This document shows positions 9,369-61,825 of a stretch of DNA of 64,000 nucleotides, piece by piece. The stretch is from Roseovarius bejariae (GTDB taxonomy: Bacteria; Pseudomonadota; Alphaproteobacteria; Rhodobacterales; Rhodobacteraceae), in the NCBI RefSeq assembly GCF_009669325.1, contig NZ_SZWE01000001.1:868402-932401 (forward strand). The letters are read 5' to 3'. Both the position numbers and the translations under genes were made by a program. The notes beneath the pieces were generated by a model, which was not told where the DNA came from, did not search any database, and saw only the letters and a list, made by a program, of their open reading frames with translations. Numbering within the stretch: position 1 is the first letter of the stretch; the number at the start of each line of letters is the position of its first letter.

Positions 9369-9449
9369 TTTCGTACGACTCGTACGAAAGGTTTTCCACT
9401 TCTGCGGATTTTCGTACGAAACTGGCGTACAAAACGTACGACTCGTACG
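9369..9449. repeat. CGTACG palindrome array A (between SDR/phrB and leuA)
   Basis: Three perfect palindromes are present. A 21-bp one is centred on 9379 (TTTCGTACGACTCGTACG plus AAA), a 12-bp one on 9415.5 (TTTCGTACGAAA), and a 15-bp one on 9442 (CGTACGACTCGTACG). Centre spacings are 36.5 and 26.5 bp, 63 bp in total, and the same spacings occur inverted at 44154-44234. Both long palindromes have GACTC, a GANTC methylation site, at their centre. An extra half site CGTAC lies at 9426-9430. The array is in the promoter region shared by SDR/phrB (minus) and the leuA leader (plus). A regulator or structural role is likely, but no known factor was recognised. Confidence 0.9.
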
Positions 9450-9480
9450 AAAATTTCCGGGGTTTTCATCGGCGGTCATC

Positions 9481-44153: not shown

Positions 44154-44234
44154 TTCGTACGAGTCGTACGAAGATGCCCCCGGTTTCGTACGAAACTCAA
44201 GGGGGCCGGCCAAAGGATCGTACGAGTCGTACGA
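44154..44234. repeat. CGTACG palindrome array C (upstream of the L,D-transpeptidase)
   Basis: Palindromes are centred on 44163 (TTCGTACGAGTCGTACGAA, 19 bp), 44189.5 (TTTCGTACGAAA) and 44226 (TCGTACGAGTCGTACGA, 17 bp). Centre spacings are 26.5 and 36.5 bp, 63 bp in total: exactly those of array A in reverse order. Both long palindromes have GAGTC at their centre. It occupies the gap between the TcA stop (44300) and the L,D-transpeptidase ATG (44133). Confidence 0.9.
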
Positions 44235-44299: not shown

Positions 44300-47200
44300 T
44301 CAGTTCAGCGACATCTGCACCAAAAGCACGATATCTTCGACCGCGCCGTCAGCGAAGGCCGAGGTGGCCCCCGCATCCCCCGGGGCAAGATCGCCCGCAT
44401 CGACGATGCGCAAGAGGTGATCACCCAAAAGCCCCGTCCCGAATCCCGCTGCGGCACTGGCGCCGACATAGCCGGGGAAATCGGGCAGCGCGGCAAAGCC
44501 GGACACGGTTGTCCCGTTGATGCTGATTTCGGTGCCGGTGGCCGACAGCCCGTCACGGGGTTTGATCAGCAACAAGGCCTGATCAAGACTGATCGCGCGA
44601 TTGCGCAAGGCCACGGGCAAGGCGCGTTGATCGAGTGTCAGCATGGCATCGACATTGACCGGCCCGGTGGACAGCTGATGCAGGACGGTGCCGAATTCCT
44701 GTCGCAGGCTATAGGCCCGGGCCAGTGAATTATCGGTCAAGGCCTTGGCCAAGGCCCCTTCGAGCGAGGCATTGGCATCTTCGACCCGGTCGCGCAACAC
44801 CCCGTCGCTTTCCGCCGAATAGGAGATATGCAGGATCACGTCATTGATCGTGGCATAATCGAACGGCCGGAAGTTGCGCGGCAGGGTCACTTTCCATGTG
44901 CTTTCCACGGCCCCCGCCCCTTCAAAGGGCATATAGCGCGGATCGGCGAAGCTGAAGTCAAAGACGCCGGCATCGGACTGTGCGGTGCTGGTGGCAATCT
45001 GCACGGTATGGCGCAACAGACTGTCGGTCAGGCCCGCCGGTCCATCCTGTGTGGGTTCCACCCGCAGTTTCGAGCCCGTCAGCGTCAGCGTCGCGGGGAT
45101 GTTGACGTAGGGCCCGGTCACGCAGGCAATCGACAGGCGCGCGGAATTGATGATCCGCCGGTATTGCCCGGGATAGAGCAGATCGAAGGCCAGTTCGGGC
45201 ACGGTGAAGGTACATTCCCCGGTTTCGCGCAGGCGCATCAACCCGGCTGGGTCGATCTCGGCAAGGGAGAAAGGTTGCGAGATTTCCAGCTTGCGATAGT
45301 TGGTTTCGAGGAAGCGTTTTTCCATCGCGACCAGATCGACGGCCAGTTTCTCGCCCGACAGAAGACCCGCCTGCCCCGGTTCCCAATAGCTGAGGTCCAG
45401 CAGGATGGCGGTATCGTCGGGCCGTTCGAACCGATAGGCCTGTTCGGCCAGTTGCGCCATGGAGAAGGCCGCGTTGAAGGCTTGGCGATAGATGGTTTGC
45501 AGGGTTGAGACCATCCATGTGTAAAGCTCTTCGCCGGAAAACTTGCTTTCGTAGAAATCCAGCACCTCTTCTTGATCTTCGATGGCCTGAAGGTGGTTTT
45601 CCAAGGCGCGTTCGGCGATCTCTAGCCGGATTTTGGCGGCGGCGATCTTTTTCTCGATCTGCTTGAGTTCGTGTTCGTCGAGTTTCTTGCTGTGTTCCCA
45701 GCCCTTGCGGCGGCGCTGATACTTGGCCTCAAGCGAGGCGGATTTGCCGAAGATATCCAGCATGGTGCCTGTATCGCTGAAGACCTTGGCCCATTCCTTG
45801 GCCGAGCCGCCCAATTCGGCACCGCCGTATTTCATCGCAAAGGGCGATCCCAGTTGCGGGATGAGGTAGAAGATACCGGCGGTGCCGCTGAGGGCCGCGC
45901 TGAGGCCCTTGCTAAGACCGGCCCCGTGGGTTGAGATTTGCTCGGCCCGTTCCCATGACAGCAAGTCTTGAGAGATATTTTCTTCGTAATAGCTTTTGCG
46001 GTATTCCACCGCCTCCTTGCGGCGGTTGATCTCTTCAAGGCTTTCCTCAGCGATCTTGACCTCGTTCTCGCGCACCTTGGTGACAAGGTTTTGCATGTTG
46101 ATCGCCTGTTGCAGGCGCAGCTTGGCCAGTTCCTCGCCATCCTTGCGTTCGATGGCGCCCTGCAGCTTGGCCCCGAAGCCCTGCACCAGTGAGGTGTATT
46201 CGCGGGCCTTCGAGATCAGGTAGGAGAAGCGATAGGGCGGCAGGTTGCCCGCGCTGGCCCCCAGTATGTCACTGAGGCTGAGGCCGGCGGCGCGGGCGCG
46301 GACAAGCGCCATCGGGTCGATCTCGGGCGCGAAGAGCGCCATATCCACCCGCTCGCCATCGATGTTGCGGCAATTGTGGATCTTGTACAGACGGTCTTCG
46401 ATGCGGTCCCAGATTTTCATCAGGTCCTTGTTGCGCGGCACGCAGAAGACCGGCCCGACCTGCCGCACAACCGAGGTGGTAAAGGCATCGGGGCTGATCC
46501 GGTTCCAGTGGCGCCAGTTGCGATCAAGGGTTTCGGTGGCGCGCATATGGCCACGTTCGGCATAGACCTTGCCGGTGCCGTTCCACGTCATTTGCCGCCC
46601 CGGAATGCCGTCTTTGACATGCGCCGTTTCATAGCGTTTCTCGGCCTCGATATGCGGGGCCAAGACCGGTTCGGCCGGCTCGGACGACGGGCGATCGGCA
46701 AGCATGGCGACGGTGGGGTCGTCGTTGATCTGCAACTCGGTCTGGCCGCGGCTTATCTTGTCGACCCGTTCGGCGGCACCCGCGGTGCGGGCGCTGTCGA
46801 AGGTCATTTCGGCCATGACCATGGATTCGGTCTTGGCCTTGAGGTCGAGCATGTGGAGATCGGCGCGTTCCATGGCGACGAAATCGCGGCTGGCGACAAA
46901 GCCGGTATTGTTGGCCTCGTGCATGATGCCGTGGTGCACCCAGAAGCTTTCGGCCTCGATCAGGAAATCCTGACCGGCCTCCATGTGCGGTTTGATCTTT
47001 TCATAACTGCGCGGGCGCACCTTGCCTTCGCCGCAATCCCCGGCATCGGCGGGGCGCGGGCCCATGATCTGGCGGGCCAGATCGTAAAGGATATGCGCCT
47101 CGTCCACGGTTTCGCGCTGGAACTGGCGGAACAGGCTGTCGGCCCAGTCCAGCAGGTTATCGACATAGCGCATGACGATATTCTTCTGGAAAGCCGACAG

Positions 47201-50200
47201 GCGCAGGCGGGCGATGGCATAGGGGTTGAAGGGGTCCTTGCGGTAGGCCTCTTGCGCCTCTTCATCGGTGAGGATGCTGCGCAGGGTGGGCGGGGCCATG
47301 CCGTGGAATTCGGCATATTGCCAAACGCGATCACGCTCGGCCTGTTTGCGGGCGCTGTCCGACAGACCGGCCAGATCGACACCGCTGTCGAATTTGGCGG
47401 TGGGGTCGAAGATGGTCTGGTACCAGCCTTGGGCGGCGGAATAATCCCCGCGCGCATTGTGGTGCCCGGCCAGAAGCGCCGGGATATACATGAAAATCTC
47501 GCGGAAATAGGTGCCAAGGGGGCCCGCGTAATCTAGGCCACTTGTGGTGCCGCGCAGCAGGGTGCGCATGTTGCTGCTGGTGACCAGATGGGCCTTTTCC
47601 TTGAAGTCGGCCTGCGCCTTTTTATCGAGCAGCGCATCGACCCCGCCGTAGAACAGCGTGCGGCTCATCTCGTTCAAGACGGTGGTGCCGACGCGGCGCG
47701 CCTCGTAGGGGCGGGCGCTGCTGCTGAAGTTGTAGCTGAAGAAGCTGGCATCGCTTTCTTTTTGCACGAACATGCAGGGAAAGCCGAAATCGGATTGCGG
47801 CACGACGAGATGCGGATCGGGGGTGTTGACCCGCGCGACCGACGCCCCGAGGTCACGGCCAAAGAAATTCATATCATCGCGGGTGTCGCGCGCGGTATCC
47901 TCGTTGAACCCGCAGGCCAAGAGGTTACGGTCAAGCGCCTCACGGGATTTCACGAAATCCTGACGCGCGCCGACAGGTGCAGAAACCAGCCTAGGGTGCC
48001 AGTCTATCGATTGCTCATAAAGGCGCCGTCGGCTGTCGGGGCCACGCATGTGCATGGCCTTGCGGTTGCCGCGCCAATAATTGTTCATATGCTCGGTTTG
48101 GCTTTGCGTGAGCTTGGTGCCGCGGCGCTCATACAGATCGACATGAAACTGGATGTGACGTGCGCCGAGACTGAGATACAGCTCCCCCCGCAGAATACCG
48201 GGATAGACCTTTTGCCAAGCCGGGGCGTTCAGGCGGTAGCCTTCGTGGTAGTCATAGTGCCCGACCAATTCATCGGAATAGGTGGGGATAAGGACCGAGG
48301 AGCCAGGATTTTTTTGAATGCGGTGTTCAAGCAAAACGCCGCCTTCACGCAAGATCCAGTTCTGTTCAAGCCGGATCTGTTGCGGCGTGGCCCATGTGCC
48401 ATCGAGGCGCAGGAAGGTGAACATCACCTTGAAGGTGTGCTTGTAGCCACGGAACTTGTTTTCCCCACCTTCCACCTCGCTGCGCGAGGAGGTGCTGGAT
48501 TCCACCCAGAACAGATGCAGCCGGTTGTTGTACATGAAAGGCGAGACATCGCGCACCGGGATGGCCACGTCGATCTTGCGCCGCGCCGAATAGGTCACAC
48601 GGCGATTGTCGAGGAACTTGCCGAAGGTCAGGTTGTGGATGGTCCAGTAGTAATAGGTGGGCGGATCATCGGCGGTACAGCCGAAGACATGCATCACGTC
48701 CTGACCGTCCGACCAGATATGTTCGTGATAAGCCCCGGCGATGCGCAGGTTTGCCACCTCTTCGAAGCCCCGCATATAGGCGCCATAGGCATCCAGAACG
48801 GTCTGTTCGGTGACATCCTGTTGCAGCAGGGTTTTTTCAAGCGTTTCGAACAGCGGGGTCTTGTTGTCGCGCAGTTCGGGCAGCATGTAGTTTTCCGGCC
48901 AGAGGAAGACTTTGCGGTTGGCCTCCCAGACGCGGTAGTTCTTGCGCCATTCCCATTCATCGGCGGGGATGCGCGAGGGGCTGATATGGACGTGATCCGC
49001 GGCATCCGCGGGGCGGCGGTCTTGTTCCATATTGAGCACGACACGGTGTACGTAGCTTTGCAGCGAGCCGATGGCCGAGACCACAAGCGAGGTGCGCGCA
49101 CAGCCCTCCATATCCGGGTCGATGAGGTAGTAGTTGTATAGGTCGCCGCGACTTGTGAAGCGTCCGGCGGAATCGCGGATCATCCTGTCGGCCAGCGCAT
49201 CGCGGCGTTTGCCGCGCAGCGCGTCCTCATGTGCCTCGGAGGCCGAGGCAAAGGCCGCCTCGTCGCCCAGCCGCAGGCGCAGCGCCGCCTTGAGGCTTTC
49301 GGCCCCTTCTTTCAGGGACTCGGCAGTCTCGGAGGCCAGAAGGGCCATGACATCGGCCCCCAAATGGCGGTCCTCGGCAAAGGCGACGATCCGGCGCATA
49401 TGCGTCAGGGCGGGAACCGCCAAGTCCGGCAGGCTGGCGGCGGCCTCGAAGACGCGCACCGTGGCGATATCGGCCCCGGTGGCCTGGGCGAATTGGCCGG
49501 TGTCGGCGGCGGCGAAACCATTGGCGGCGGTATGGGCCGCCAGCACCGCCTCGACCGCCTCGGCGTGGTCGTCATCCTCGCCGTCTTGCAGAGCGTCGAT
49601 ATAGCCCGCGATGGCCCCCACGCTGGCGTGGGTCCAGGCCGCGACCGGGTTGGCCAGAGCGAAAAGCGCGCGGTTTGCATCGACGAATTGCACCCGTTCG
49701 GCCGTGATCACGTCATCGGCAAGGGCAGCGATGGGGCGGCGCATCCGGGCCAGCGCCGTTTCAAGCGGCCCGGCGGCCCCGCCGCTGGCCGCGTCGATCA
49801 CGCCGGCCTGTGTGAAATCGGCCCCCGCCAAGGTGGCCAGCGCATCGAATTTGTCTTGTGGCACGTCAAGCGCGAGGGCCAGTTCCTCGGGCAGGATGCG
49901 CCGCAGGTTGAAGCCATCCAGAACCGCCTGCAAATCCGCCTCGGTCACACCGCTGGGAAAGCCCGCCGCCGGGGCCGTGATGGCGGGCGCAAGGCCGACC
50001 CCCGGCTTCAGGCGCAGCATGTCACGCTCGGCGCTGTCGAAAAGACTTTCGTTGGCGCGGGTGATGGCGCGGGATTGATCCTCGCTGACGCCATCGAGAA
50101 AGGCAAAGACCGTGGGCGCAAAAAGGCCACGTTCGCCATCGGCGATGGCGGCCACCACATGCGCCGTCAGGGCAGCGGGATCAAAGAATTCCTCGTCCTG

Positions 50201-52870
50201 TGCCGGATCGGTCGGCCCGCCCATGAGGGCCGCCACGACAGGCAGCTCGAAGGGCATGGTTTCGGCCCTTTCAGCAAAGTCCAGCAGGGCGGACACGTGA
50301 TCGGGCGTGGTGACGGCGGAGGCGCCGGTGGCGATGCGGATGGCCATGAAAAGCTCGGAAATATCAAGGCCCAGCGCCTCGGCCAACAGGGCATGGCGAT
50401 AGAGCAGCGACAACGCATCCGCCGTCAGAAGGAAACCGCGATCCTGTTCGGCGGCGGCTTCGGGATCGAAGCCGAGGGCAGGTGCAAGGTTGACGATCAG
50501 CTCAAGCAGATCTTCCTCGCTGATGCCGAAGGCCATGCGCATGCGTTGCGAGATGAAAACCCCGGCATTGGGGCCTGCATCGGGCAAGGAGGCATCGTTG
50601 CGCAATCCGGGATGAACAAAGCGCAGCGCCGGGGCCGGAAAGGCCACCGCACCATCGGTGCGCAGGGTTTCATTGAACAGCCGGTCCATCAGCGCGCTGT
50701 CGTGATGGCCCATGGCAATCTGGGGGATATCACCGCCCAGCGCGAGGGCCTGATCGGGGTCAAGGCCAAGCACATCGGCGGTGTGCGCCACGCGCAGCAC
50801 CCGGCCAATGGCGGCATCGGTCAGGCCGCCGCCCACACGGGTCATCACCGCGTCCAGCGTGGCCGGATCCCAGCCGATGGCCTGCGCCAGCCGCCAGAAG
50901 CGATGCGCCCGGTCCAACATGGCGCGGGTCATGCCGGTGACGCGCTCGATATCGTTTTGCACGCTGGTGGCGGAACGTTTCTGGGCGCGGATGCGGATAT
51001 TGCCGCCGCCTTGGACGAAATCGGTTTCGACCAGCGCGCCAAAGTCATCGCGGCTGATCTCCATGCCGGCCATGATTTCCTGTACATCGAAGGCATCGGC
51101 GGTATTGCCCGAGCGCGTAAATTCCATCCGGTAAAGCGCTTCGAGGAAACCCCATTGACTGCGGGCCGTGGTGATCATCTCGTAGGCGGGCATCGACAGC
51201 AGAAGCGCCGCCGCATTGGCCGCATCGTTGGGTGCGTCGGGACGGATCAGGCCCATGATCTCGGCCCGGTCGGTATCGAAATCGGTGACATATTCATCGG
51301 CTTCGGCCGCGCCGAGGACGAAGGGCGTGACGAAAGACCGGGTGGCGGCGGGCAGGTCATCGCCATAGACCTTGGCGTGCACCGCGTCACGGTCGGACAT
51401 GTCGATCCCGGCATCGGCGCGTTTGGCGATGGCGGTTTCCAGAATACCGTTGATGATGCTGAGAGTGGGCACCAGATCATGGGTGTTGTCGCAGGTCAGC
51501 GGGGTGGTCCACAGATCGGGCCGCCGGTTTTGCAGCTTGAGCGCATGATCGGCCTTGGCGCCGGTGAATTCCTTTTTGGTGACATTCTCGTCGACGAAAT
51601 TCATCAGGTCGATGAAATAGGCCGACGGGCTGAGGATCGAGTCACAATGCGCGCAGTCGCAGAAGCTTTGATCGCCGAACAGGTCTTCGTAGCCGGGCAG
51701 TTTTTTCAGGCCGTCGGTGACATCCTCGGGCGGGGTGGGCAGCCATGTGTAGCCGCCGGGTTGCCAGATCAACTCGTCGGCGAGGGTGGCCACGAGGTTT
51801 GTCACCGTCAGGCGGGTGTCGCGGGCGCGGGCATAGACCATCTCGGCCTCGACCAGCGGCATGCCGGTCAGGTTTGCGACGGTCATGGGGTCACTGGCCG
51901 CGACGGCCACGGCGGAATGGAATCCCCCCTGCATCAGCGCGGCCGCGTTGCGCACGGTCCCGCCCACCTTGTAGGTGCGCGTCCGGGCCTTGAGCACGGT
52001 CACGACCGCCTCTTGATCCTCGTCGGCGATGCCATCGAAGTTGAGCTTTCGCAGATCGTCGGACCCTGGCATCAGGTCAAGCTGCATCAAATCCATGTCG
52101 CGGTTGTTTTCGAGAAACCCTTCGAACAGCGCGACGCGTTCGGCGATCTGGGCGGCCACACGGTTTGCCGCCGCGCCCGATTGCGCGATCTTTTCAAGGC
52201 CAAGGCCGGGGTAGGCCCCGACCGTGGCGCGAACTTCGGTTATGGCCGCTTTTTCCTTGTCGTCCAGACGTGCGGGCAGATTGGGATCAAAGAGGGCGTC
52301 GGGGTCTTTCTTGAGAAACTCCCTGACGGCGGAATAGCCTTTGCTGATCTGCTCTTTCTTCGGGGCGGCCAAACGCATCTTGAGGCCGGTATCGGGAAAC
52401 CGCTCTTCAATACGGTTACGTATAGACTCGGCCTTGGCCTTGGCCCCCTCGGGGTCTTTTTCCAGCAACTCGGGCGCCGTGGTTTTGGCCAGTTCCTCAT
52501 CACTGGCGAACAACAGGTCCTCCAGCTGTTCGGGCTTGCGACCCAGCGCCTTGACCGGTGTGGAGGCAACACGTTCGACCGCTGAGATATCGTCGCCCAA
52601 AAGCTGCGCGAACCCGGACAGGAGGCCCAGCCGCTTGGCGTCTTCCTCTTTCAGCTTGCCTTCGATCGCCAAGCTGCCAACCCGTTGATCCGACAGCGAT
52701 TCTAGCGACGGCACGCGCTCGAGCAGCACCTTGGCACTTTCATCGGACAGGTTCGGCCAGATCGGCCAGGGCCGCCACCCGCGAGCGATCCAGTTCGCTG
52801 CGCAAAAAGGGCATGTCGTCCAGGATCGCATCCTGATTGTCAGCATCAAGTTCCGCCAGGCGTTCGGCAA
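44300..52870 (-). CDS. Tc toxin TcA subunit, main part (frameshifted from its N terminus)
   Basis: The open frame runs from 52870 but homologous coding starts only near 52757; its first ~38 codons overlap the real N-terminal frame. Numbering follows the joined 2,956-residue protein. VRP1-like region FCDCAHCDSILSPSAYFIDL near residue 494. Neuraminidase/ABC-toxin region DLYNYYLIDPDMEGCARTS near 1344 and FLWPENYMLPELRDNKTPLF after it. Long pore-forming helices ~2347-2563 (QQAINMQNLVTKVRENE). C-terminal TcB-binding domain with LLYPGQYRRIINSARLSIAC near 2660. TcA forms the pentameric injection channel that delivers the TcB-TcC cocoon. It is the last gene of the toxin operon. Confidence 0.85.
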   Translation of the reverse strand: MPNAWRNLMLTIRMRSWTTCPFCAANWIARGWRPWPIWPNLSDESAKVLLERVPSLESLSDQRVGSLAIEGKLKEEDAKRLGLLSGFAQLLGDDISAVERVASTPVKALGRKPEQLEDLLFASDEELAKTTAPELLEKDPEGAKAKAESIRNRIEERFPDTGLKMRLAAPKKEQISKGYSAVREFLKKDPDALFDPNLPARLDDKEKAAITEVRATVGAYPGLGLEKIAQSGAAANRVAAQIAERVALFEGFLENNRDMDLMQLDLMPGSDDLRKLNFDGIADEDQEAVVTVLKARTRTYKVGGTVRNAAALMQGGFHSAVAVAASDPMTVANLTGMPLVEAEMVYARARDTRLTVTNLVATLADELIWQPGGYTWLPTPPEDVTDGLKKLPGYEDLFGDQSFCDCAHCDSILSPSAYFIDLMNFVDENVTKKEFTGAKADHALKLQNRRPDLWTTPLTCDNTHDLVPTLSIINGILETAIAKRADAGIDMSDRDAVHAKVYGDDLPAATRSFVTPFVLGAAEADEYVTDFDTDRAEIMGLIRPDAPNDAANAAALLLSMPAYEMITTARSQWGFLEALYRMEFTRSGNTADAFDVQEIMAGMEISRDDFGALVETDFVQGGGNIRIRAQKRSATSVQNDIERVTGMTRAMLDRAHRFWRLAQAIGWDPATLDAVMTRVGGGLTDAAIGRVLRVAHTADVLGLDPDQALALGGDIPQIAMGHHDSALMDRLFNETLRTDGAVAFPAPALRFVHPGLRNDASLPDAGPNAGVFISQRMRMAFGISEEDLLELIVNLAPALGFDPEAAAEQDRGFLLTADALSLLYRHALLAEALGLDISELFMAIRIATGASAVTTPDHVSALLDFAERAETMPFELPVVAALMGGPTDPAQDEEFFDPAALTAHVVAAIADGERGLFAPTVFAFLDGVSEDQSRAITRANESLFDSAERDMLRLKPGVGLAPAITAPAAGFPSGVTEADLQAVLDGFNLRRILPEELALALDVPQDKFDALATLAGADFTQAGVIDAASGGAAGPLETALARMRRPIAALADDVITAERVQFVDANRALFALANPVAAWTHASVGAIAGYIDALQDGEDDDHAEAVEAVLAAHTAANGFAAADTGQFAQATGADIATVRVFEAAASLPDLAVPALTHMRRIVAFAEDRHLGADVMALLASETAESLKEGAESLKAALRLRLGDEAAFASASEAHEDALRGKRRDALADRMIRDSAGRFTSRGDLYNYYLIDPDMEGCARTSLVVSAIGSLQSYVHRVVLNMEQDRRPADAADHVHISPSRIPADEWEWRKNYRVWEANRKVFLWPENYMLPELRDNKTPLFETLEKTLLQQDVTEQTVLDAYGAYMRGFEEVANLRIAGAYHEHIWSDGQDVMHVFGCTADDPPTYYYWTIHNLTFGKFLDNRRVTYSARRKIDVAIPVRDVSPFMYNNRLHLFWVESSTSSRSEVEGGENKFRGYKHTFKVMFTFLRLDGTWATPQQIRLEQNWILREGGVLLEHRIQKNPGSSVLIPTYSDELVGHYDYHEGYRLNAPAWQKVYPGILRGELYLSLGARHIQFHVDLYERRGTKLTQSQTEHMNNYWRGNRKAMHMRGPDSRRRLYEQSIDWHPRLVSAPVGARQDFVKSREALDRNLLACGFNEDTARDTRDDMNFFGRDLGASVARVNTPDPHLVVPQSDFGFPCMFVQKESDASFFSYNFSSSARPYEARRVGTTVLNEMSRTLFYGGVDALLDKKAQADFKEKAHLVTSSNMRTLLRGTTSGLDYAGPLGTYFREIFMYIPALLAGHHNARGDYSAAQGWYQTIFDPTAKFDSGVDLAGLSDSARKQAERDRVWQYAEFHGMAPPTLRSILTDEEAQEAYRKDPFNPYAIARLRLSAFQKNIVMRYVDNLLDWADSLFRQFQRETVDEAHILYDLARQIMGPRPADAGDCGEGKVRPRSYEKIKPHMEAGQDFLIEAESFWVHHGIMHEANNTGFVASRDFVAMERADLHMLDLKAKTESMVMAEMTFDSARTAGAAERVDKISRGQTELQINDDPTVAMLADRPSSEPAEPVLAPHIEAEKRYETAHVKDGIPGRQMTWNGTGKVYAERGHMRATETLDRNWRHWNRISPDAFTTSVVRQVGPVFCVPRNKDLMKIWDRIEDRLYKIHNCRNIDGERVDMALFAPEIDPMALVRARAAGLSLSDILGASAGNLPPYRFSYLISKAREYTSLVQGFGAKLQGAIERKDGEELAKLRLQQAINMQNLVTKVRENEVKIAEESLEEINRRKEAVEYRKSYYEENISQDLLSWERAEQISTHGAGLSKGLSAALSGTAGIFYLIPQLGSPFAMKYGGAELGGSAKEWAKVFSDTGTMLDIFGKSASLEAKYQRRRKGWEHSKKLDEHELKQIEKKIAAAKIRLEIAERALENHLQAIEDQEEVLDFYESKFSGEELYTWMVSTLQTIYRQAFNAAFSMAQLAEQAYRFERPDDTAILLDLSYWEPGQAGLLSGEKLAVDLVAMEKRFLETNYRKLEISQPFSLAEIDPAGLMRLRETGECTFTVPELAFDLLYPGQYRRIINSARLSIACVTGPYVNIPATLTLTGSKLRVEPTQDGPAGLTDSLLRHTVQIATSTAQSDAGVFDFSFADPRYMPFEGAGAVESTWKVTLPRNFRPFDYATINDVILHISYSAESDGVLRDRVEDANASLEGALAKALTDNSLARAYSLRQEFGTVLHQLSTGPVNVDAMLTLDQRALPVALRNRAISLDQALLLIKPRDGLSATGTEISINGTTVSGFAALPDFPGYVGASAAAGFGTGLLGDHLLRIVDAGDLAPGDAGATSAFADGAVEDIVLLVQMSLN

Positions 52871-53204: not shown

Positions 53205-53516
53205 TTAAAACTGTGGGATGCGCATGGTTATGTCGGCCCCCCGGTTGCGTAGGGCGTCCGGGGTGGTGACGGGGTCGGGCCCGTCGCAAATAAGGGCCGC
53301 ACCGATCGGCGCGGCGTTTTGGCTATCGAAGGCGATGCTGTCGGGGTCGGCCCCCTCCGGCAAAAGCCAGAATTCCGGGCCAACACCGCTGGACGTATGC
53401 AAAACCTGACCGCCCTTTATCGCGCCGAGCTGCACCAGTTGCCCGGCCTTGGCCAAGCGGCCCAATCTGGCCGCTTGCGCCTCGGCGCTGACCCAGTTGA
53501 GGCCCGGCGCGCTCAT
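53205..53516 (-). CDS. Small hypothetical protein between TcB-TcC and TcA
   Basis: A 103-residue ORF. It starts in the stop of the TcB-TcC gene (ATGA, 53513-53516) and ends 33 bases before TcA, so it is translationally coupled within the toxin operon. No signal peptide or transmembrane segment is evident. It contains WVSAEAQAARLGRLAKAGQL and a FWLLPEGADPDSIAFD segment. No family was recognised. It could help assembly, folding or effector loading; immunity is less likely because Tc effectors act on other organisms. Confidence 0.65.
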   Translation of the reverse strand: MSAPGLNWVSAEAQAARLGRLAKAGQLVQLGAIKGGQVLHTSSGVGPEFWLLPEGADPDSIAFDSQNAAPIGAALICDGPDPVTTPDALRNRGADITMRIPQF

Positions 53517-56500
53517 GGTGCGCCTGCCGCGGCGGCGGGGTTTTCATCGTCGCCGGTCAAGTAGCGGTAGGCGCCATACGCCGCCCCGCCAAGCCCGGCC
53601 ATCCCGGCGGCGGTCCATCCCATCGCTTGGCGTGCCATCGCCACATTTTTATTTTTACCCAAGTAAAACACATACGTGGAATGGAGGGCGTTAAGCGGCA
53701 CCATAGGCAAGGCATGCAGGCGGCCCGTGGCCAGCCGTCCCGCAGCATAGGCCCCCATTTCGTCCAGCATACTTATGATTGCGAACACAGGTTGCCCTTT
53801 CGGGGTTTCCCACATGTATTTCTTTACTGGCCAAGCCACCAAATTGGTGAAGGCGTGAAAGCCCTCATGCACCGCAGCGTCCAATTTGTTGGGCAGGCGA
53901 GTGGCCTTGTTCACAATCGTGGTTTTCATATACGGCCAAAAACCGAGAAACTTTTGCGGCGTCGTAGCGCGAAAAGCCTCTGCCCCATCCGTCATTCCGT
54001 AAAGAAACCAGCGGCCCACAGCGCTGTCGACCATGGCCGCGCGCCATCCGCCTTTGCTCATGGCCCAATTGTAGAATTTGTATTGCAGACTATAATCACC
54101 GGCCACCCATTTGAAGAGATTGTCGGCATAGACGCTCATTTGTTTCGCGCCTTTGACTGAAAGCTGTTTGAGCCCTTTGACCGACAGGTTCTTGGCGGCT
54201 TTGCGGCCAAGCGTTGTGAGGGCTTTCACGCCCGCTTTGACCGCGACTTTCAGGCCGGTCTTGATGGCCGCCAAGCCACCAAGGGTCACCACCGTCAGGG
54301 CGATATCCACCACCGTCAACGCCACATAAAGCCCCTGCCCCCATGAGCCGAGGTTCAGGCTGCCCATGCCGCCGGGGATGCCGCCGGATTCGCCACCTTT
54401 CTTGTCGCCGCCAAACTCTAGGTTCCAGTAGCCCGCGTATTTGACCACCTTGTCCATGACGGTGGCCGGCTTTTGACCGCCGCCGCTTTCGTCGCCGTTT
54501 TGGCCGGGCGTCTTGTTCTTGTTGGCGTCACCGCTGGCGCCTCCTTTGCCGTTTGTGCCGCCGGTTTGCGGGCCGGCGTTGCCGCTTCCGGTGCTGCGCT
54601 CGCCGCCCGTGCCTTTGCCTTCGCCGGTGGCCTCGCCGTCGGGGTGCCCATTGAGCGACCCCTTGATGCTACCGCCGGCCATGCCCCCTTCTTGACCGCC
54701 CTTTTGGCCGCCGGGGGTTTTGCTGGTGCCGCCCTTTTCGCCATCGGGCAGGGCGCCATTGGCCTCGGGGTCGGTGCCGGTGCCGTTGCCCTTGCCGCCT
54801 TTCTTGCCCTCGGCACTACCGCCCGGTTTATGCGCATCGCCCAACCCGCTGCCGCTGGCGCCGGGGCGCGTGTGTTCGCCGCCCTTGCCGCTACCGGTTT
54901 TTTTGGGGTCGCCTTCGCCCGCACCATGGCCCGTGCCCTTGTCGCCCAACCCATGAGCGTTTGCCTCGTTTGAGGTGCCGCCGCCACCGTCGCCATCGCT
55001 TTTGGACAAGGGATTGCTTCCGGTGCCATCGTCATCGCCTTGATCACTGCCGTTCTTGGCCTTGCCCTCGCCATCCTTGCCGGTGGTGTCGTCCCCGGTG
55101 CCATCGTCGGCACCTTGGGAGAGGTCGGCGCCGTCTTTCTTGCCGTCCTTGGCCTCTGTGCTGTCATCGCCTTCACCGCCGCCACCAGAGGTGTCTCCGC
55201 CGGTCTCGGTGCTGTCGGAGGTGTCCTCGGGGTCGGTGTCGTCCTTGGGGTCGCCCGTGCCATCGCCGGTGCCGGTGCCATCCTTGGACCCACCCGGAGT
55301 GGTGACCACCTGCACGTCTTCGCCAGCGGCCAGTTTGCTTTCAGCAAGCGCCGCCATCTCGGCCTTGCTGCCCATGTGCACGGTGCCCTGCGTGTCGATG
55401 AAATAGGCGAAATTCTTGGCATCATAGAGCGCCTTGAGTTCCTTGAAGCGCTCGGGGTTGGAGGTTTTCAGACCGACGATCGCGTTGATCACCGCGTCGG
55501 GCGTTTCGGCCACTTCGACCGGGATACGTTTGCCCCGTTCGCCGCTGCCCGTTGTTTGCAGGCCGGTCGGGTCAAGATAGGTGATCGGGTTGCATTGCGC
55601 GTAGATATAAAGGTTCGGGCCATCCTCATCGCCCGCCGGGTCGGGAGATATCCACCGACAGAGCCAACTTGCATAGTAGCGCTGCCCGATATGGTGCAGC
55701 CCGGTGGCATCGTCGCGTTCGCGCCCGATGAAGCCGAAGCGCTTGAGCGCCACCTCGCGGGCATTGTCGCCCGCGGCAAAGGCGCGTTGGCCGAAGGGCA
55801 GGTATTCTTCGTAGGAGATGATATTGCCCGTCTCATCCAGCCGCAGCGAGGCCGAGCACAGATGATCGCCCAGCGTATAACGCAGGCGGTGCGCGGTCAC
55901 GTCGTTGGTTTCCCGCGCGCTGCTGTCGAGGGTCCAGCGGTAAAGCTCGGCCATATCGGACAGCCCGTCGGACAGCGTGGTCGTGAACCGTTCGAGGATC
56001 ATCTGATCGTCGCGGAAGATGCGGCGGCGTTGTGCGCCGGGCAGATAGGTCACCTCGGTCCGCTCGACGATGCCACCGGCCAGCATGCGGCGGGTGATCC
56101 GGCGCAGGCGGTTGCCGTCGCCGTCATAAAGATAAACCTCGTCATCATCCGGCAGGCCTTGATCGGAACGGTCGATCACCACCGCGCGGGCCAGCCGGTG
56201 ATCGTGCCGCCATTCCAGCCGTGCGATGTGGTCCATGCGCTGTAGCTCACCCGCGGCGGCGAAATCGGCCTGCGGGTTGGGATAGGGCAGGCCATCGGCC
56301 CCCAAGGCGGGGCGCGATCGGTTGCTGGCCGCGTCGATCCAGAAATCCTGTGTGAAATTGCTTAGGGTGCCGGTGTGGCGCAGGCGTTCAAGGTTGCCCG
56401 ACAGGTCATAATCGTAGCTTTGGGTAAAGCGTTCGGTGGCCGAGCCATCCGACAGTGCGAAACCGGCCTGTGGGGTTGGCCCGGCAGTGAGGGCGTTATG

Positions 56501-59500
56501 CGCCCGCCCTTCGCAGCGGGTCAGCCGGTAGAAGGGATCATAGGTATAAAAGCGCGCGGCGCTGACGGCGGGGGCGGTGCGGAAAAAAGCCGAAGCCCCG
56601 CCGCCCGCCGGATCATGGGCCAGATCCTGACAGGCGGTGATATTGCCCACCGGGTCATAGGTATAGTTGAGGTCCTGGATCAGCCGCACGCGCGCCCCGG
56701 CGGCGGGGCGGCGGGCCTCGATCCGGCGGACCAGACGGGTGTCGGGGTCATAGCTGCGGGTCAGTTCGACGCCATTGCCCAGACGGGCGAATGCGCGCTG
56801 GCCCTCCACGTTGTAGCGCGCATCTCCAATGATCTGGGTTTCGGCCACCTGCCCGTCCAGCGTGGCCACCGACAAGGCGGCAAGGTGGCCGCCATCGGTA
56901 TAGGCGGCGCGCAGGCGCGTGCCATCGGGGCGCTCTTCGCTCAAGGGACGGCCAAAGGCATCGTGGTGCATACGGGTGGTGAAAACATCCGCCTCCAGCG
57001 CCACGGCCCCCGTCCAATCGGGCGCGGCCTCGGCATCGGCCAGCAGTTGCATCGAGCTGCGGGTGGGTTGCCCGGTGGGCAGGGCATCCAGCAGGCGGTG
57101 TTCGCCCGCATCATCGCGCGTGACTACGGCCATCCCCAGAAGATTGCGCGACAGCGTATCGGCATCGGTGGGGTCATCGGCATAGGTCACCGTCTCAACC
57201 CGGCGCAGGCCAGCGCCGGTATCGACATCCACGGCGACGACCCGGTCGGTGGCGTCAAACCGCGTGTGCCGGATCGTGCCATTGGCCAGCGTCAATTCCA
57301 CGGCATTGTCGCGATCATCGAACAGGGCGCGGGTCCGGCCGGCATCGGCCAGCCATTCGGTGATCTTGCGCCCCTGCATGTCGTAAACATGGCGCGAGGT
57401 CTCGACCCCGCGCGCATCAATCACGCGCGTGATGTCGCCGTAGTGGTCATAAAGACTGCGCATTTCGCGCAGGCCTGCGGCCCCGCCGTCTTCGCGCAGG
57501 CGCACCTGTGCGCCCGTGGCATCAAAGATACGTTCCACCGGGGTGCCTGCATGGGGCAAGCTGCCATCAAGCGCGCGGCGTTCGGGGTGATCGGCGGGCA
57601 GGATGTCCCGCGACAACCGCCACGCGGATTGATCGACCGTATCGTTGGCATCGAAATGCCGCTCTCCCCATGCGCCATAGTCCGAGCGTTCCATGGCCCC
57701 GCCGGGCAGAAGCCGCCGCACCACCCGTCCGAAGGCATCGAAATACTGTTCGGTCGGCTGCCCGAATTGTTGCAGCACCTCGTCGGCCTCGTAATCGGGG
57801 CGGTCCGAGAAATAGGGCTCATAGGCGCGGATCGGTTCGCCCTTCTGGTTGCGCTGAACCCAGCCATTGGTGGTCCAGCGTTGGGTGGCGTCTTGCAGAT
57901 CGGGCGTGCCATCGGCGGCCAGCACCACGTCGCCTTGGGCGTCGCGGTGAATGGCCGGGCCACCCTCGACCCGTTGTTTGCCGCTCAGCACCTCACCATA
58001 GCCGTCGTGATACAAAACTTCGGCGCGCAGATGGCCCATGGCCTGCGCACCGCCCTGCCCGTCATGCCGAAGGTCACCCGCCAGAATGGACAGTTGCACC
58101 GGCGGGCTGCCATCCCGCTCGAAGGCCTCAAGATCGTAGATCATGAGCTGTGAGGCCGCCCCAAGCGCCGCCGCCGGATCGGCCAATGCGGTTGCCAGAT
58201 CGGGAACAGGCCCAGCCTGCGGCGGATCAAAGCCCCAAGGCTGCTGGGTGCCGGTGTCATCCACCACGCTGCCGCCATGCGCGGCGCGCAGCGGGATGCC
58301 CAGCGGGTCGAACACGGTTTCGCTCCAAGCGCCGGTCGGGCTTTCGCTGCGGCGGGGGGTCAGCGCGTGGTAGTCGATCACGCTGGTCGCCACCGCGCCA
58401 AAGGGGTCGGTCATCGACACGGCGAACAGATGCGCCGCGTCAAACCCGTTTGTCGTGCGCCGCCCATCGGGAAGGATATGCCCCGTGGCGCGGAAAAAGC
58501 CAGCGGCCTCAAGATAGGTCAGAGTCGGGGTCGCGCGCCACCAATGCCCATCGCGTTGCCAATGGCCCAGATCGGTCAGGCGCGGGCCGATGGTGGCCCC
58601 GTAGTGAGTGGTGGCGAAAAGGTCAGAGAACACGGCGCTTTCGGCATGGTGCAGGCGCGGCGGTTGCGCGATGTCTTGCGGGCGGTCGAAATCGGCAGGC
58701 TGGCCCGCCGCGTCATAGTGGATTTGCCGGCTCCAATGGCTACGCAGGGCGCGATTGGGCACCGGCGGGGCGGCGAAGCCAAGCGGGTCGGCCAGCGCCG
58801 TATCGACAAGCGTCGCCATCTCGTCAAACCGGAACCAGCCGCGCGCCGGGGCGGCAAGACCGGGCAAAACAAACTCCTCTTGCTCGCGCAGAAGGTTGAG
58901 CGACAGCAGGTCGTCGTCGTCTGCGTGGTGCAGGGTTTTGCGCGTGATCTCGCAGGTCAGGGTGGATTGCCCTGTATCTTCGACCGGCTGTCCGGCGCGG
59001 CGCGGGTAACTAAGCGTTGCGGCCAGAGTATCGGCCCCGTGGTCATCGCGATGCAGGATGAAGGCATGCGATTCACGCGGATCATCAGCGACGCCGTGAT
59101 AAAGTGCGGCGCTGCTTTCGCGGTCAAAACAGGCCAGTACCGCGCGATCCTGTGGCCGCCTGCGATTGCGCAGGGCGGCCGCGGCGGCGGGGGGCTGCTC
59201 CATGCGCACCGCAAAGCCCGATTGGTTGACCGACATCGGCACCGGGGCCGGGCCATCGGCCCCGATGGCATAGGTTTCTTCGCGCAAGACACGCCCGCGC
59301 AGGCATTTGCGCGCGTCTTGCAGGGTTTCCATATCAGGCACCGGCGCGCCGGGCGGGCGTTCGAAGTGGAAGGCCGGAACCTTGATTTCCTGCGGATCAC
59401 CCTGCCAATAGCGCGCCTGCGCCGGATCGCCCTGCCCGTGGTCATAGAAGGCACGGGTCATCAGCGGTTCACTGACCGGCAGGTCCTCGCCCTCGGTTTG

Positions 59501-61825
59501 CAGGAAATCGGCGGTGACGATCTCGACCTCGCCAAAGCCCGCGAAACTGCGGCTGCGCCCGTCATAGGCCCCATTGCGATAGCGCAGTTGCGTCTCGTAT
59601 AGGGTGCCGGTGATCAGGTCTTCGCTGATCACCCGGTCGACCGTGACCAGATGGCTGGGCAGGCTGGTATCCCATGCCCGGTCGCTGCCTTTATCGCGCA
59701 GGTAATGCTGCGCCGAATGGCCATATTCCAGACGGTCGCAGCGGCCCATGCCATTGCGCACTTCGCGCATCAAACCGGGCGGCACCGCACCGGACAAAGG
59801 CAGGCTTTGCCATGTGGCGATGCGACCGGGGCGCACTTCGGTCCAGACCAGCGACAGGCGCCCGTCGGCCATGATATCGGCCACCTCGACGGTGCTTTGG
59901 GTGTCGATCATCGGCAGGCCCGACAGGATGCGCGGCGCGCTCCAGCCATTGCCGGCCTCGTTGGTCCAGATGCGCACCTCCCCCTCGCCCAGAAGGATCA
60001 GGTCCGCCGTGCCCGAGCCATCCAGATCGGCCAGCAGGATACGATCCAGCGCAAAGCCGCCCGCGGTCTCCAGCACAGGCGCGTTTTCCATCACCACCGG
60101 CGCGCCGAAACGACCACCGCCCAGACCGGGCCAATAGGCCATCATGCCGCTGCGCACCAAGACCTGATCTTGCAGGCCATCGCCGGTCATATCGGCGAAA
60201 AGGTAATCATTGGCGGGGTCGCTGCTGAGCGGGGGGGCGCCGGTGGGGCCTTGGGCGGCCTCCTCGGGCAAGCGCGTGCGCTGTGCCTGCGGGGCGTAAC
60301 CGGCGCGGCCGCGCGCCTCGTAATACCGCAGGCCCTCACCATCGCGCACCACCAGATCGGCGCGGCCATCGCCCGTCATGTCAAGGCGCTGCACCCCGGC
60401 AAGGCTGCCAAGGGCGGGCATTTCATCGAAGGGGTGAAAGGCGCTCCATTCCCCCGTGGTGCGGTCGAATGTGTAATGCCCCGCCCCCTGCCCCGCATAG
60501 GCGACCGCATCCATGTTGCCATCGCCATCGAAATCGCCAAGCGAGATGGCCGCAAGGCTATGGGCCGGGCGGCTTTGCACACAGACGGGCGGCGCGAACC
60601 GCCCGCCGCCAAGGTTACGTTGAAAGAACCACCCGGCGGGGTCGTCTTGCAACAGGCCCGGCAAGCCTTCGCCGTAAAGATCGGCCAGAAGCGTCTTGGC
60701 ATTCGACACGCCACCGGGGGCGGTGGCCTGCAAGGGGGCGGACACGGCGGCGAAGGTATCGGCGATCGACGGTTGGGTGTAGTCGAACCGAAGCGGCGGC
60801 ATGGCGCGGCTGGCCCCCTCGCGCCAGCCTGTCTTGGTCACCCCGGTCAACAAGGTGCCGCTGGTGCGGCGGTCATAATCGAAGGCGATGCTGCGGGTCA
60901 GAACGGGCTGTGGCCCCAACGCATCGAATTGGTGAAACAGCAAGGCGCGCTGACACAGGCGCCATGTCCGCAGGTCGAACCCCGCAGTGCAGGTTGAAAA
61001 GGGATCGGGCCGCACGGGCCACGCGCGGTCAGGCGCGGGGCCGGGCGCATCCGGGTCGTGATCGCCATAGTCAAAGACCAGTTGGAAGGCCCATCCGCTG
61101 GTCGCCGGATCGAAGGCGTCGACATCCTGCGCCGGGGTCGTATTCACCCAATGAACGGATTTGAGATAGCGTTGCGCCAGTGCGCCGCGCCGCGCGCGGT
61201 CGGCCAAACGGTCCCCTGCCCCGCCGCGCAGGTCCTCGGGCTGGTATTGATACCAGATGGCATCGCCCCGCGCGTTGACCGTCAGTTCCGGCAACCATTG
61301 ATAGATGCGCCGTGGCTGCGCCGGGTCGGCAATGCAGGAACCTGCATCGGGGTCGCGTCCATAGATTGTGACGGCATTGGTGGTGTCGCGGCTGCGCCAG
61401 TGGACCGCGCCGGTGGCGATCTCAACCCAGCGTTCAAACCGGATACGGCTGCTGTTTTCCTGCGCGATGAAGGTCTCCACCCGGAATCCGGCCTCGCTGC
61501 GCACCATGGCCCGGCCCGCCGCGTCATGCTTGGGTACAAGCGAGCCACCCAGAGTGGCGGTATAGCCATCGCTCTGATCGTAGCGTGGCAGGCTATCGCT
61601 GGTGTCGATGGTGATGACCGGCAGGCCCATCAAGACCCAACCGCGCCCGAAGGCCCCCTGCATCCGCGAGGAGGCATAGGTCAACCCGAGAGTCGGTTGC
61701 AGGCCATTGCGGCCCTCGGGCAGGTCGAAATCAAGACTGACCTGTGCCGACCCGGTAAAGCGATCTGCCGAGACTTGGTAAGACAATGCCAAGTCCGATG
61801 GTGAAAAATTCGATGACCCAGACAT
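53513..61825 (-). CDS. Tc toxin TcB-TcC fusion with C-terminal metallopeptidase-like effector
   Basis: A 2,770-residue protein, ATG 61825 after AAAGGA. An SpvB/TcdB domain opens it (FSPSDLALSYQVSADRFTGS), then VCBS/FG-GAP repeats with DxDGDG or TGDG loops (residues ~430-660), TcdB middle domains, RHS/YD repeats (~1440-2090) and the RHS core end (DPAGDEDGPNLYIYAQCNP, YLDPTGL). RHS/TcC proteins use this end for autocleavage and release of the C-terminal effector. A ~290-residue Gly/Asp/Lys-rich linker (~2172-2465) leads to a hydrophobic stretch and a domain with VHEGFHAF (zinc HExxH, ~2652-2656) and DEMGAYAAG (~2688). Fusion of TcB and TcC in one chain occurs in some Tc families. The effector call is by motif only. 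Confidence 0.88.
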   Translation of the reverse strand: MSGSSNFSPSDLALSYQVSADRFTGSAQVSLDFDLPEGRNGLQPTLGLTYASSRMQGAFGRGWVLMGLPVITIDTSDSLPRYDQSDGYTATLGGSLVPKHDAAGRAMVRSEAGFRVETFIAQENSSRIRFERWVEIATGAVHWRSRDTTNAVTIYGRDPDAGSCIADPAQPRRIYQWLPELTVNARGDAIWYQYQPEDLRGGAGDRLADRARRGALAQRYLKSVHWVNTTPAQDVDAFDPATSGWAFQLVFDYGDHDPDAPGPAPDRAWPVRPDPFSTCTAGFDLRTWRLCQRALLFHQFDALGPQPVLTRSIAFDYDRRTSGTLLTGVTKTGWREGASRAMPPLRFDYTQPSIADTFAAVSAPLQATAPGGVSNAKTLLADLYGEGLPGLLQDDPAGWFFQRNLGGGRFAPPVCVQSRPAHSLAAISLGDFDGDGNMDAVAYAGQGAGHYTFDRTTGEWSAFHPFDEMPALGSLAGVQRLDMTGDGRADLVVRDGEGLRYYEARGRAGYAPQAQRTRLPEEAAQGPTGAPPLSSDPANDYLFADMTGDGLQDQVLVRSGMMAYWPGLGGGRFGAPVVMENAPVLETAGGFALDRILLADLDGSGTADLILLGEGEVRIWTNEAGNGWSAPRILSGLPMIDTQSTVEVADIMADGRLSLVWTEVRPGRIATWQSLPLSGAVPPGLMREVRNGMGRCDRLEYGHSAQHYLRDKGSDRAWDTSLPSHLVTVDRVISEDLITGTLYETQLRYRNGAYDGRSRSFAGFGEVEIVTADFLQTEGEDLPVSEPLMTRAFYDHGQGDPAQARYWQGDPQEIKVPAFHFERPPGAPVPDMETLQDARKCLRGRVLREETYAIGADGPAPVPMSVNQSGFAVRMEQPPAAAAALRNRRRPQDRAVLACFDRESSAALYHGVADDPRESHAFILHRDDHGADTLAATLSYPRRAGQPVEDTGQSTLTCEITRKTLHHADDDDLLSLNLLREQEEFVLPGLAAPARGWFRFDEMATLVDTALADPLGFAAPPVPNRALRSHWSRQIHYDAAGQPADFDRPQDIAQPPRLHHAESAVFSDLFATTHYGATIGPRLTDLGHWQRDGHWWRATPTLTYLEAAGFFRATGHILPDGRRTTNGFDAAHLFAVSMTDPFGAVATSVIDYHALTPRRSESPTGAWSETVFDPLGIPLRAAHGGSVVDDTGTQQPWGFDPPQAGPVPDLATALADPAAALGAASQLMIYDLEAFERDGSPPVQLSILAGDLRHDGQGGAQAMGHLRAEVLYHDGYGEVLSGKQRVEGGPAIHRDAQGDVVLAADGTPDLQDATQRWTTNGWVQRNQKGEPIRAYEPYFSDRPDYEADEVLQQFGQPTEQYFDAFGRVVRRLLPGGAMERSDYGAWGERHFDANDTVDQSAWRLSRDILPADHPERRALDGSLPHAGTPVERIFDATGAQVRLREDGGAAGLREMRSLYDHYGDITRVIDARGVETSRHVYDMQGRKITEWLADAGRTRALFDDRDNAVELTLANGTIRHTRFDATDRVVAVDVDTGAGLRRVETVTYADDPTDADTLSRNLLGMAVVTRDDAGEHRLLDALPTGQPTRSSMQLLADAEAAPDWTGAVALEADVFTTRMHHDAFGRPLSEERPDGTRLRAAYTDGGHLAALSVATLDGQVAETQIIGDARYNVEGQRAFARLGNGVELTRSYDPDTRLVRRIEARRPAAGARVRLIQDLNYTYDPVGNITACQDLAHDPAGGGASAFFRTAPAVSAARFYTYDPFYRLTRCEGRAHNALTAGPTPQAGFALSDGSATERFTQSYDYDLSGNLERLRHTGTLSNFTQDFWIDAASNRSRPALGADGLPYPNPQADFAAAGELQRMDHIARLEWRHDHRLARAVVIDRSDQGLPDDDEVYLYDGDGNRLRRITRRMLAGGIVERTEVTYLPGAQRRRIFRDDQMILERFTTTLSDGLSDMAELYRWTLDSSARETNDVTAHRLRYTLGDHLCSASLRLDETGNIISYEEYLPFGQRAFAAGDNAREVALKRFGFIGRERDDATGLHHIGQRYYASWLCRWISPDPAGDEDGPNLYIYAQCNPITYLDPTGLQTTGSGERGKRIPVEVAETPDAVINAIVGLKTSNPERFKELKALYDAKNFAYFIDTQGTVHMGSKAEMAALAESKLAAGEDVQVVTTPGGSKDGTGTGDGTGDPKDDTDPEDTSDSTETGGDTSGGGGEGDDSTEAKDGKKDGADLSQGADDGTGDDTTGKDGEGKAKNGSDQGDDDGTGSNPLSKSDGDGGGGTSNEANAHGLGDKGTGHGAGEGDPKKTGSGKGGEHTRPGASGSGLGDAHKPGGSAEGKKGGKGNGTGTDPEANGALPDGEKGGTSKTPGGQKGGQEGGMAGGSIKGSLNGHPDGEATGEGKGTGGERSTGSGNAGPQTGGTNGKGGASGDANKNKTPGQNGDESGGGQKPATVMDKVVKYAGYWNLEFGGDKKGGESGGIPGGMGSLNLGSWGQGLYVALTVVDIALTVVTLGGLAAIKTGLKVAVKAGVKALTTLGRKAAKNLSVKGLKQLSVKGAKQMSVYADNLFKWVAGDYSLQYKFYNWAMSKGGWRAAMVDSAVGRWFLYGMTDGAEAFRATTPQKFLGFWPYMKTTIVNKATRLPNKLDAAVHEGFHAFTNLVAWPVKKYMWETPKGQPVFAIISMLDEMGAYAAGRLATGRLHALPMVPLNALHSTYVFYLGKNKNVAMARQAMGWTAAGMAGLGGAAYGAYRYLTGDDENPAAAAGAP

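Follow-up and report, generated by a model that had tools for sequence, protein, structure and literature searches.

Spacing-locked palindrome arrays, mostly at 3' gene ends, in Roseovarius bejariae and related genomes

Palindrome arrays in the 64-kb window

Array C is located, in the window (the whole stretch of 64,000 nucleotides that was analyzed), between a TcA-type frame with the stop at 44300 and a putative L,D-transpeptidase gene with the start at 44133. These are separated by 166 bp, of which the array takes up 80 bp, not the whole gap as the preliminary description had it. Both the TcA frame (44300-52870, minus strand; TcB-binding and ABC_toxin_N domains according to Pfam) and a TcB/TcC-like frame (53513-61960, minus strand) with SpvB and TcdB middle regions and a weak RHS repeat (Pfam) are giant and contain domains of Tc toxin complexes. 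No Rfam family at the gathering score and no tRNA was detected in the window. Array C includes five TCGTACGA palindromes that start at 44155, 44164, 44186, 44218 and 44227 and make up two outer boxes and a middle site; array A (9371-9450) is laid out identically but in the opposite direction:

9371..9387, plus strand: outer box of array A, TCGTACGA-C-TCGTACGA
9410..9421, plus strand: middle site of array A, TTTCGTACGAAA
9427..9430, plus strand: optional extra GTAC core of array A, 13 bp from the middle core and 9 bp from the box core
9434..9450, plus strand: outer box of array A with one mismatch, ACGTACGA-C-TCGTACGA
44155..44171, plus strand: outer box 1 of array C, TCGTACGA-G-TCGTACGA, a 17-bp palindrome of two 8-bp palindromes with a 9-bp step
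44172..44185, plus strand: 14-nt spacer of array C between 8-mers, conserved in length, mostly free in sequence
44184..44195, plus strand: middle site of array C, TTTCGTACGAAA, a 12-bp palindrome
44194..44217, plus strand: 24-nt spacer of array C between 8-mers, conserved in length, mostly free in sequence
44218..44234, plus strand: outer box 2 of array C, TCGTACGA-G-TCGTACGA, a 17-bp palindrome

All nine matches to TCGTACGA in the window, for which shuffles give an expectation of 0.38 and a maximum of 2, fall within these two arrays. Re-reading of the sequence bears out the previously reported centers of array C (44163, 44189.5 and 44226), the spacings of 26.5 and 36.5 bp, and the presence of GAGTC in both outer palindromes (at 44161 and 44224). 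The notion that array C is an exact mirror of array A is valid for the spacings (36.5 and then 26.5 bp in A) but not for the details, given that array A has a mismatch in the right box (9434) and a sixth GTAC core (9427), both absent from array C. The spacers of the two arrays differ in sequence, as had been noticed, but a weak spacer consensus is common to the copies, so that both belong to the same repeat family with a common layout.

A genome-wide family with fixed spacing

Array C is not a second copy, as originally described, but one of at least 72 arrays in the 3.5 Mb host genome, which belongs to the genus Roseovarius and consists of three contigs. A scan of the fetched loci yielded 72 arrays in this genome (hereafter G000), 60 in G029 and 49 in G099, 181 altogether; these counts are lower bounds because a looser, half-array pattern has 72 matches in G099 compared to the 49 arrays counted. 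The scan accepted spacings of 40-42/62-64 and a score of at least 30 of 40, with other layouts uncounted; the counts exclude one pattern match in G029 (contig C51) and, with 2 to 3 mismatches, seven in G099, and two fetched places in G000 (L044 and L066) contain no array. The standard 41/63 spacing is exact in 173 of the 181 arrays, and the remaining 8 deviate by 1 bp, the full tolerance of the scan. The core CGTACGAGTCGTACG has 128 matches in the genome, with none for the control. In agreement with the earlier claim of conserved distances, the spacing is fixed rather than freely varying: the box-to-box distance is 63 bp in 36 of the 41 pairs of perfect boxes (less than 500 bp apart on contig C1, among the matches listed), with 62, 62, 64, 64 and 72 bp in the rest. 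These arrays form a genuine family that is under selection and has its palindromes locked in spacing.

In a species-genome collection, which may omit the genome of the window itself, doubled outer boxes were detected in 14 stretches, all from Roseovarius sp. MMSF_3281 or a single Roseovarius metagenome-assembled genome, and this exact form is found in 3 of the 84 genomes of the genus, the host included. The weak spacer consensus among the copies consists of a C-run, a G-run and the bases adjoining the palindromes. The possibility, raised at the outset, that the copies derive from a single longer repeat is weakly favored by this consensus; against it, the spacer sequences are hardly conserved.

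A plasmid origin was considered and rejected: in a distant-similarity blastn search of a plasmid collection with a 201-bp query (E limit 10), none of the 20 matches listed, of 58 records, covers more than 22% of the query. The tally of that search includes 38 Sinorhizobium records among the 58, with 38 at 99% or better (20 matches listed). The exact 17-mer box occurs once in each of four viral contigs (L030-L033), possibly by chance. No description of these arrays was found among the titles and abstract beginnings listed in searches of the open-licence PMC literature.

Placement along genes and contigs

The arrays are located mostly at the 3' ends of genes. In G000, convergent gaps contain 30 arrays, tandem gaps 33 and divergent gaps 7, and 2 arrays overlap frames, whereas the 341 background gaps (60 bp or longer, from the fetched loci) comprise 40 convergent, 190 tandem and 111 divergent ones; convergent gaps are accordingly enriched for arrays (30/70 vs 40/341, P 1e-8) and divergent gaps depleted (7/70 vs 111/341, P 7e-5). 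Across the three genomes, tandem arrays (n=80) start a median of 12 bp past the upstream stop and end 92 bp ahead of the next start, with the genes predicted by a simple codon-usage script, such that individual starts are approximate. Gap classes could be assigned to 172 of the 181 arrays (4 without both neighbors and 5 that overlap frames were left out), and 21 of these 172 are between divergent genes.

The density is approximately one array per 48 kb on both C1 (60 arrays) and C2 (12 arrays). On C1, only 4 of the 59 gaps between arrays are shorter than 15 kb, compared to the 15.8 expected (P 5e-5); this cut-off was picked after the gaps had been seen, and at 10, 20 and 25 kb, P = 0.004, 5e-5 and 0.002, respectively. 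The coefficient of variation (CV) of the C1 gaps is 0.75 vs 0.98 (P 0.013). A maximum gap of 239 kb, as observed, is ordinary under random placement (P 0.33). Undercounted arrays close to counted neighbors would weaken the evenness result. There is no significant evenness among the 12 arrays of C2. On contig C15 of G033, for which 26 sites are listed, the CV is 0.56 vs 0.95 (P 0.0015), with 3 short gaps vs 7.0 (P 0.03). The G000 arrays are oriented 39 one way and 33 the other, and the sampled GC skew is too noisy to locate the origin or terminus. The dnaA gene is at C1:1948738; an array located about 4.5 kb away (L069:2470-2549, C1:1953269), between a LysE-type gene and gyrB, has orthologues in both relatives.

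A transcription-end element, in which either a protein roadblock or transcript hairpins would stop the polymerase at 3' ends and protect convergent genes from one another, fits the enrichment in convergent gaps and the short distance from the upstream stop, as well as the position of the first core 2-5 bp past the stop of hemE in all 11 significant cases described below. This explanation appears unlikely considering that about 72 arrays leave most gene ends of the genome without one, that 21 of the classified arrays are between divergent genes and one copy is within the ispDF gene, and that even spacing along the contig is unexpected for such an element, as is the lack of spacer covariation (see below).

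FhlA contains a domain of the Fis-type helix-turn-helix type. The core of an FhlA site, CATTTCGTACGAAATG, given in PMC4987338, equals the middle site TTTCGTACGAAA of the arrays, and this match can be considered a lead towards a Fis-type helix-turn-helix binder. The same match, along with the general resemblance of spaced palindromic sites to dimer operators and the presence of a putative HTH/cupin regulator next to one array (L045), could also be taken to mean that the arrays are operators of a transcription regulon. Such a role seems improbable because divergent gaps are depleted and the 14 neighbors of the 7 divergent-gap arrays of G000 are a functional mix of metabolic, transport and housekeeping genes, with one lacking a Pfam match. 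The depletion of divergent gaps combined with the even spacing points to a role at the chromosome level rather than to a regulon.

An array inside the ispDF gene

One array of G000 (L034:4784-4863, C1:20283-20362) lies inside the coding frame of ispDF and is translated as FSYDSYVAIHDVARSCTKPAYVSYVLYE. The in-gene array is also present in the G029 and G099 orthologues, and a differently spelled array occupies the same spot in G020 and G089. In the alignment of 123 ispDF sequences, the gaps in this region span 0-7 residues, except for a shorter row with 15, whereas an 80-bp insertion would need about 27; the gaps are thus too small, and the in-gene array apparently arose without an 80-bp insertion. 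In the enzyme, the array corresponds to a stretch rich in tyrosine. At the protein level, among 120 homologues listed of 8000 scored, 48 contain YxxYxxY at this spot, 19 contain YxxY and 53 contain neither. A step of 9 bp between sites spans three codons and would account for this tyrosine rhythm.

Evolution of palindromes, spacers and box centers

Based on the flanks, 55 orthologous array pairs were identified between G000 and G029, 44 between G000 and G099, and 38 between G029 and G099, with a median flank identity of 85-87%; none of the pairs matches better in the opposite orientation. Among the G000 arrays, 64 of 72 have an orthologue in at least one of the two relatives and 35 in both. 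Array lengths differ in 3, 4 and 1 pairs, respectively, and substitutions were counted in the pairs with standard spacing only (51/55, 39/44 and 36/38). The motif differs at 82/2040, 53/1560 and 60/1440 positions (3-4%), compared to 427/1224, 367/936 and 292/864 in the 24-nt spacer and 165/714, 150/546 and 114/504 in the 14-nt spacer, i.e., 23-39% for the spacers overall. The two bases on either side of the middle 8-mer are changed at only 1/204, 0/156 and 0/144 orthologous positions. The flanks differ by 33-51%, which is an upper bound because the comparison was gapless. The great difference between palindromes and spacers indicates that the motif and the spacing are subject to purifying selection whereas the sequence in between is not. 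The original observation on two arrays, namely, that palindromes and distances are conserved and the intervening sequence is not, thus extends to 181 arrays and to orthologous loci in three species.

The box centers, which were excluded from the motif, are changed at 24/102, 17/78 and 18/72 positions. Of the 59 changes between orthologues at box centers (44163 and 44226 in array C, for example), 48 are C/G transversions, perhaps through palindrome-templated inversion. In the three closest species, C or G predominates at the centers (172 and 175 of 181), which creates GANTC. A methylation-dependent CcrM/GANTC site was considered as the functional core and rejected, given that GANTC occurs in 0 of the 28 boxes in the loci of other species; it is present in a few boxes of the half-array matches listed. 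GAGTC as a key feature is abandoned on the same grounds.

Compensatory pairing between the spacers around the middle site does not exceed that in between-array spacer shuffles (P 0.50, 0.27 and 0.14), which favors recognition of DNA over a folded hairpin. Together with the absence of an Rfam match in the window, this result led us to reject an RNA element. The predicted folding energies are below those of spacer-shuffled controls for both single-stranded DNA (mean z -1.28, t -7.3) and RNA (mean z -0.89, t -4.7); this difference argues against reading of double-stranded DNA by a protein but may reflect the C-run and the G-run next to the middle site.

The main rival to a protein-binding site is a non-autonomous mobile repeat of the REPIN or MITE kind, moved by a transposase such as RAYT that would require the palindromes and let the spacers drift. 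REPINs, as characterized in PMC3116915, are extragenic palindromic repeats with conserved ends and a variable spacer of fixed length, which show frequent compensatory changes and random extragenic placement. The arrays are similarly dispersed, numerous and mostly extragenic, with conserved palindromes and a fixed spacer length; additionally, the palindrome form is species-specific as in REPs, the weak spacer consensus suggests common descent, and single-stranded DNA folds better than the shuffled controls. A mobile-repeat origin is possible, but it appears rather unlikely. The arrays consist of three palindromic units at 0/31/63 rather than of two inverted REP sequences with a variable spacer; most are at orthologous positions across the three species, always in the same orientation and with the motif conserved; no compensatory spacer changes are seen, although the same source (PMC3116915) reports these as common in REPINs; the spacing on C1 is more even than random; and the ispDF copy aligns with the relatives, with no 80-bp insertion. 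Furthermore, no RAYT-like frame was detected beside the arrays in the 205 fetched loci (1.07 Mb, including the fetched array flanks of three genomes) with an HMM derived from Enterobacteriaceae only, which did recover the positive control.

Arrays in other species

The gene upstream of the array at C1:1655800 is hemE, encoding uroporphyrinogen decarboxylase (Pfam). On the 3' side of hemE, arrays with the same geometry, often with other palindromes, are present in other genomes. When the GTAC-core geometry was scored against 2000 shuffles per genome, P 0.0005 was obtained in 11 of 52 genomes, the host included (G000, G029, G099, G070, G033, G076, G020, G035, G069, G089 and G087), and in all 11 of these significant cases, the first core is 2-5 bp past the stop. 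Weak fits were found in G022 (P 0.019), G093 (0.0225), and G023, G018 and G071 (0.08-0.09), and none of the remaining 36 genomes has a P under 0.09. Behind hemE of G093, G023, G018 and G071, CTTAC-N5-GTAAG replaces CGTAC-N5-GTACG. In the hemE array of G099 (L230), none of the five cores has the flanks found in the counted G099 arrays: CGTACG is replaced by TGTACA in four and by CGTACA in one, with the geometry retained.

Searched in 26 genomes, the half-array pattern is most abundant in G033 (75) and G099 (72, control 1), followed by G070 (33) and by G069, G076 and G020 (13 each). Lower counts were obtained for G101 (11, control 3), for G071, G023 and G018 (8 each), and for G093, G035 (control 2), G027 and G089 (5 each); G087 has 3 matches and G003 has 1, and the remaining ten genomes have none.

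The positions of the arrays are partly, not fully, common to the species. Of the 30 loci fetched from other species, two belong to G099; among the other 28, 14 are on array places of the three closest species. These represent 8 places, namely, hemE (4 loci), ispDF (2), L086 (2), L051 (2, of which L287 is ambiguous), L083, L078, L060 and the place of array C. For the other 14, matches are either lacking or not close to an array, and because the database consists solely of loci around arrays, they do not bear on empty sites. Additional loci, from G020 and G089, are on the places of L062 (hemE) and L058. Thus, at some loci, the array is retained with a different spelling.

In G099, the place of array C is occupied by the same array. 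In G089, it contains cores at L291:250, 259, 281 and 322 (span L291:250-325), in the same orientation but with other palindromes, 57 bp upstream of the transpeptidase start compared to 24 bp for array C. There is no good match to TcA on the far side of the G089 array, which suggests that the array belongs to an older neighborhood.

The right box of the arrays in G033, G020 and G089 (L257, L286, L301 and L225-L228) is a different inverted repeat, of the TTGCG..CGCAA or TTTGTG..CACAAA type. This divergent box is perhaps a second binding specificity within the array.

Helical phase and a putative nucleoprotein complex

Around the middle site, GTAC cores peak (in at least 3 arrays) solely at -31, -22, -13, 0, +32, +41 and +50, and at +63 in G029. 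The peak at -13 includes 16, 8 and 6 arrays, that at +50 includes 4 and 3, and that at +63 (G029) includes 3, over a background of 0.11-0.15 per position away from the fixed offsets. Counted from the first core, the sites are at 0, 9, (18), 31, 63, 72 and (81) bp, where brackets denote optional sites, i.e., three palindromic units at 0/31/63 with 9-bp neighbors. At 10.5 bp per turn, sites 0 and 63 are in phase, site 31 is off by 17 degrees, sites 9 and 72 by about 50 degrees and the optional sites by about 100 degrees; the five main sites share a helical face above random expectation (P 0.005). The same palindromes across the loci, the lack of spacer covariation and the preservation of helical phase together favor a dimeric protein that recognizes double-stranded DNA and assembles along one face.

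The reading that we tentatively prefer, with a confidence not far below even, is that the array is a composite site for a dimeric, sequence-specific DNA-binding protein, a multi-dimer scaffold whose recognition code has shifted between lineages. Under this reading, a candidate dimeric protein would bind the GTAC-centered palindromes at 0, 9, (18), 31, 63, 72 and (81) bp. About three helical turns separate site 0 from site 31 and site 31 from site 63, and the distance between the outer groups is exactly six turns, so that the five main dimers could come together on one DNA face, to within about 50 degrees, in a single nucleoprotein complex, as suggested by the geometry, with the two optional sites facing about 100 degrees away. 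The protein complex reading the spacing that was initially proposed is consistent with this arrangement; protein binding as such, the participation of several dimers, the co-evolution of the code with the sites and an architectural role are all what we infer from the sequence patterns. At least 72 such complexes would then be present, mostly at 3' gene ends and with a density of approximately one in 48 kb on each of the two large G000 contigs, and the best-supported role would be nucleoid organization, anchorage or partitioning, comparable to that of SlmA- or Noc-type sites, in preference to promoter control. A chromosome-level function is plausible.

A paralogue of ParB or Noc was evaluated as the binder. 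Across 14 genomes searched for PF02195 (ParB), G000 and G029 have two matches each, the canonical ParB and one more; the second locus of G000 has tblastx matches in the G020 and G099 loci but none in the second locus of G029. With no second PF02195 paralogue common to G000 and G029, this candidate was set aside.

Comparison with known systems and implications

Sites bound by SlmA (SBS) and Noc (NBS) resemble the arrays in that they are specific protein-binding sites scattered around the chromosome. The ParB/Noc family is characterized by a single palindrome of 14-16 bp per site, with few sites near the terminus, and the cores of NBS and parS are of the TTTC-N4-GAAA type. In contrast, the arrays contain five to seven palindromes per site at fixed helical spacing (five main sites in the three closest species), and the palindromes are species-specific at shared loci. 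The best reading by analogy is that the arrays may work like the SlmA or Noc site families without necessarily being members of either. MetJ met boxes and NrdR boxes are tandem operators of small dimeric repressors that are similar to the arrays in having 8-bp tandem palindromes, or boxes about three helical turns apart; the arrays differ from these operators in their number (at least 72 loci) and in a location mainly at the 3' ends of genes, unlike a promoter regulon.

Altogether, it is possible, although somewhat doubtful, that a Roseovarius lineage possesses an undescribed chromosome-wide nucleoprotein scaffold, with some 70 or more spacing-locked multi-dimer stations that would be evenly spread and located at 3' gene ends, with a DNA recognition code that would have changed concertedly from species to species, some of the stations remaining fixed, and strong enough to shape part of the metabolic enzyme IspD. 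If the arrays are such a scaffold, they would be a new chromosome-organizing site system in Alphaproteobacteria, in which the co-evolution of a recognition code with its sites would be traceable species by species, over dozens of sites at fixed loci; the places of hemE, ispDF and array C are ready test cases.
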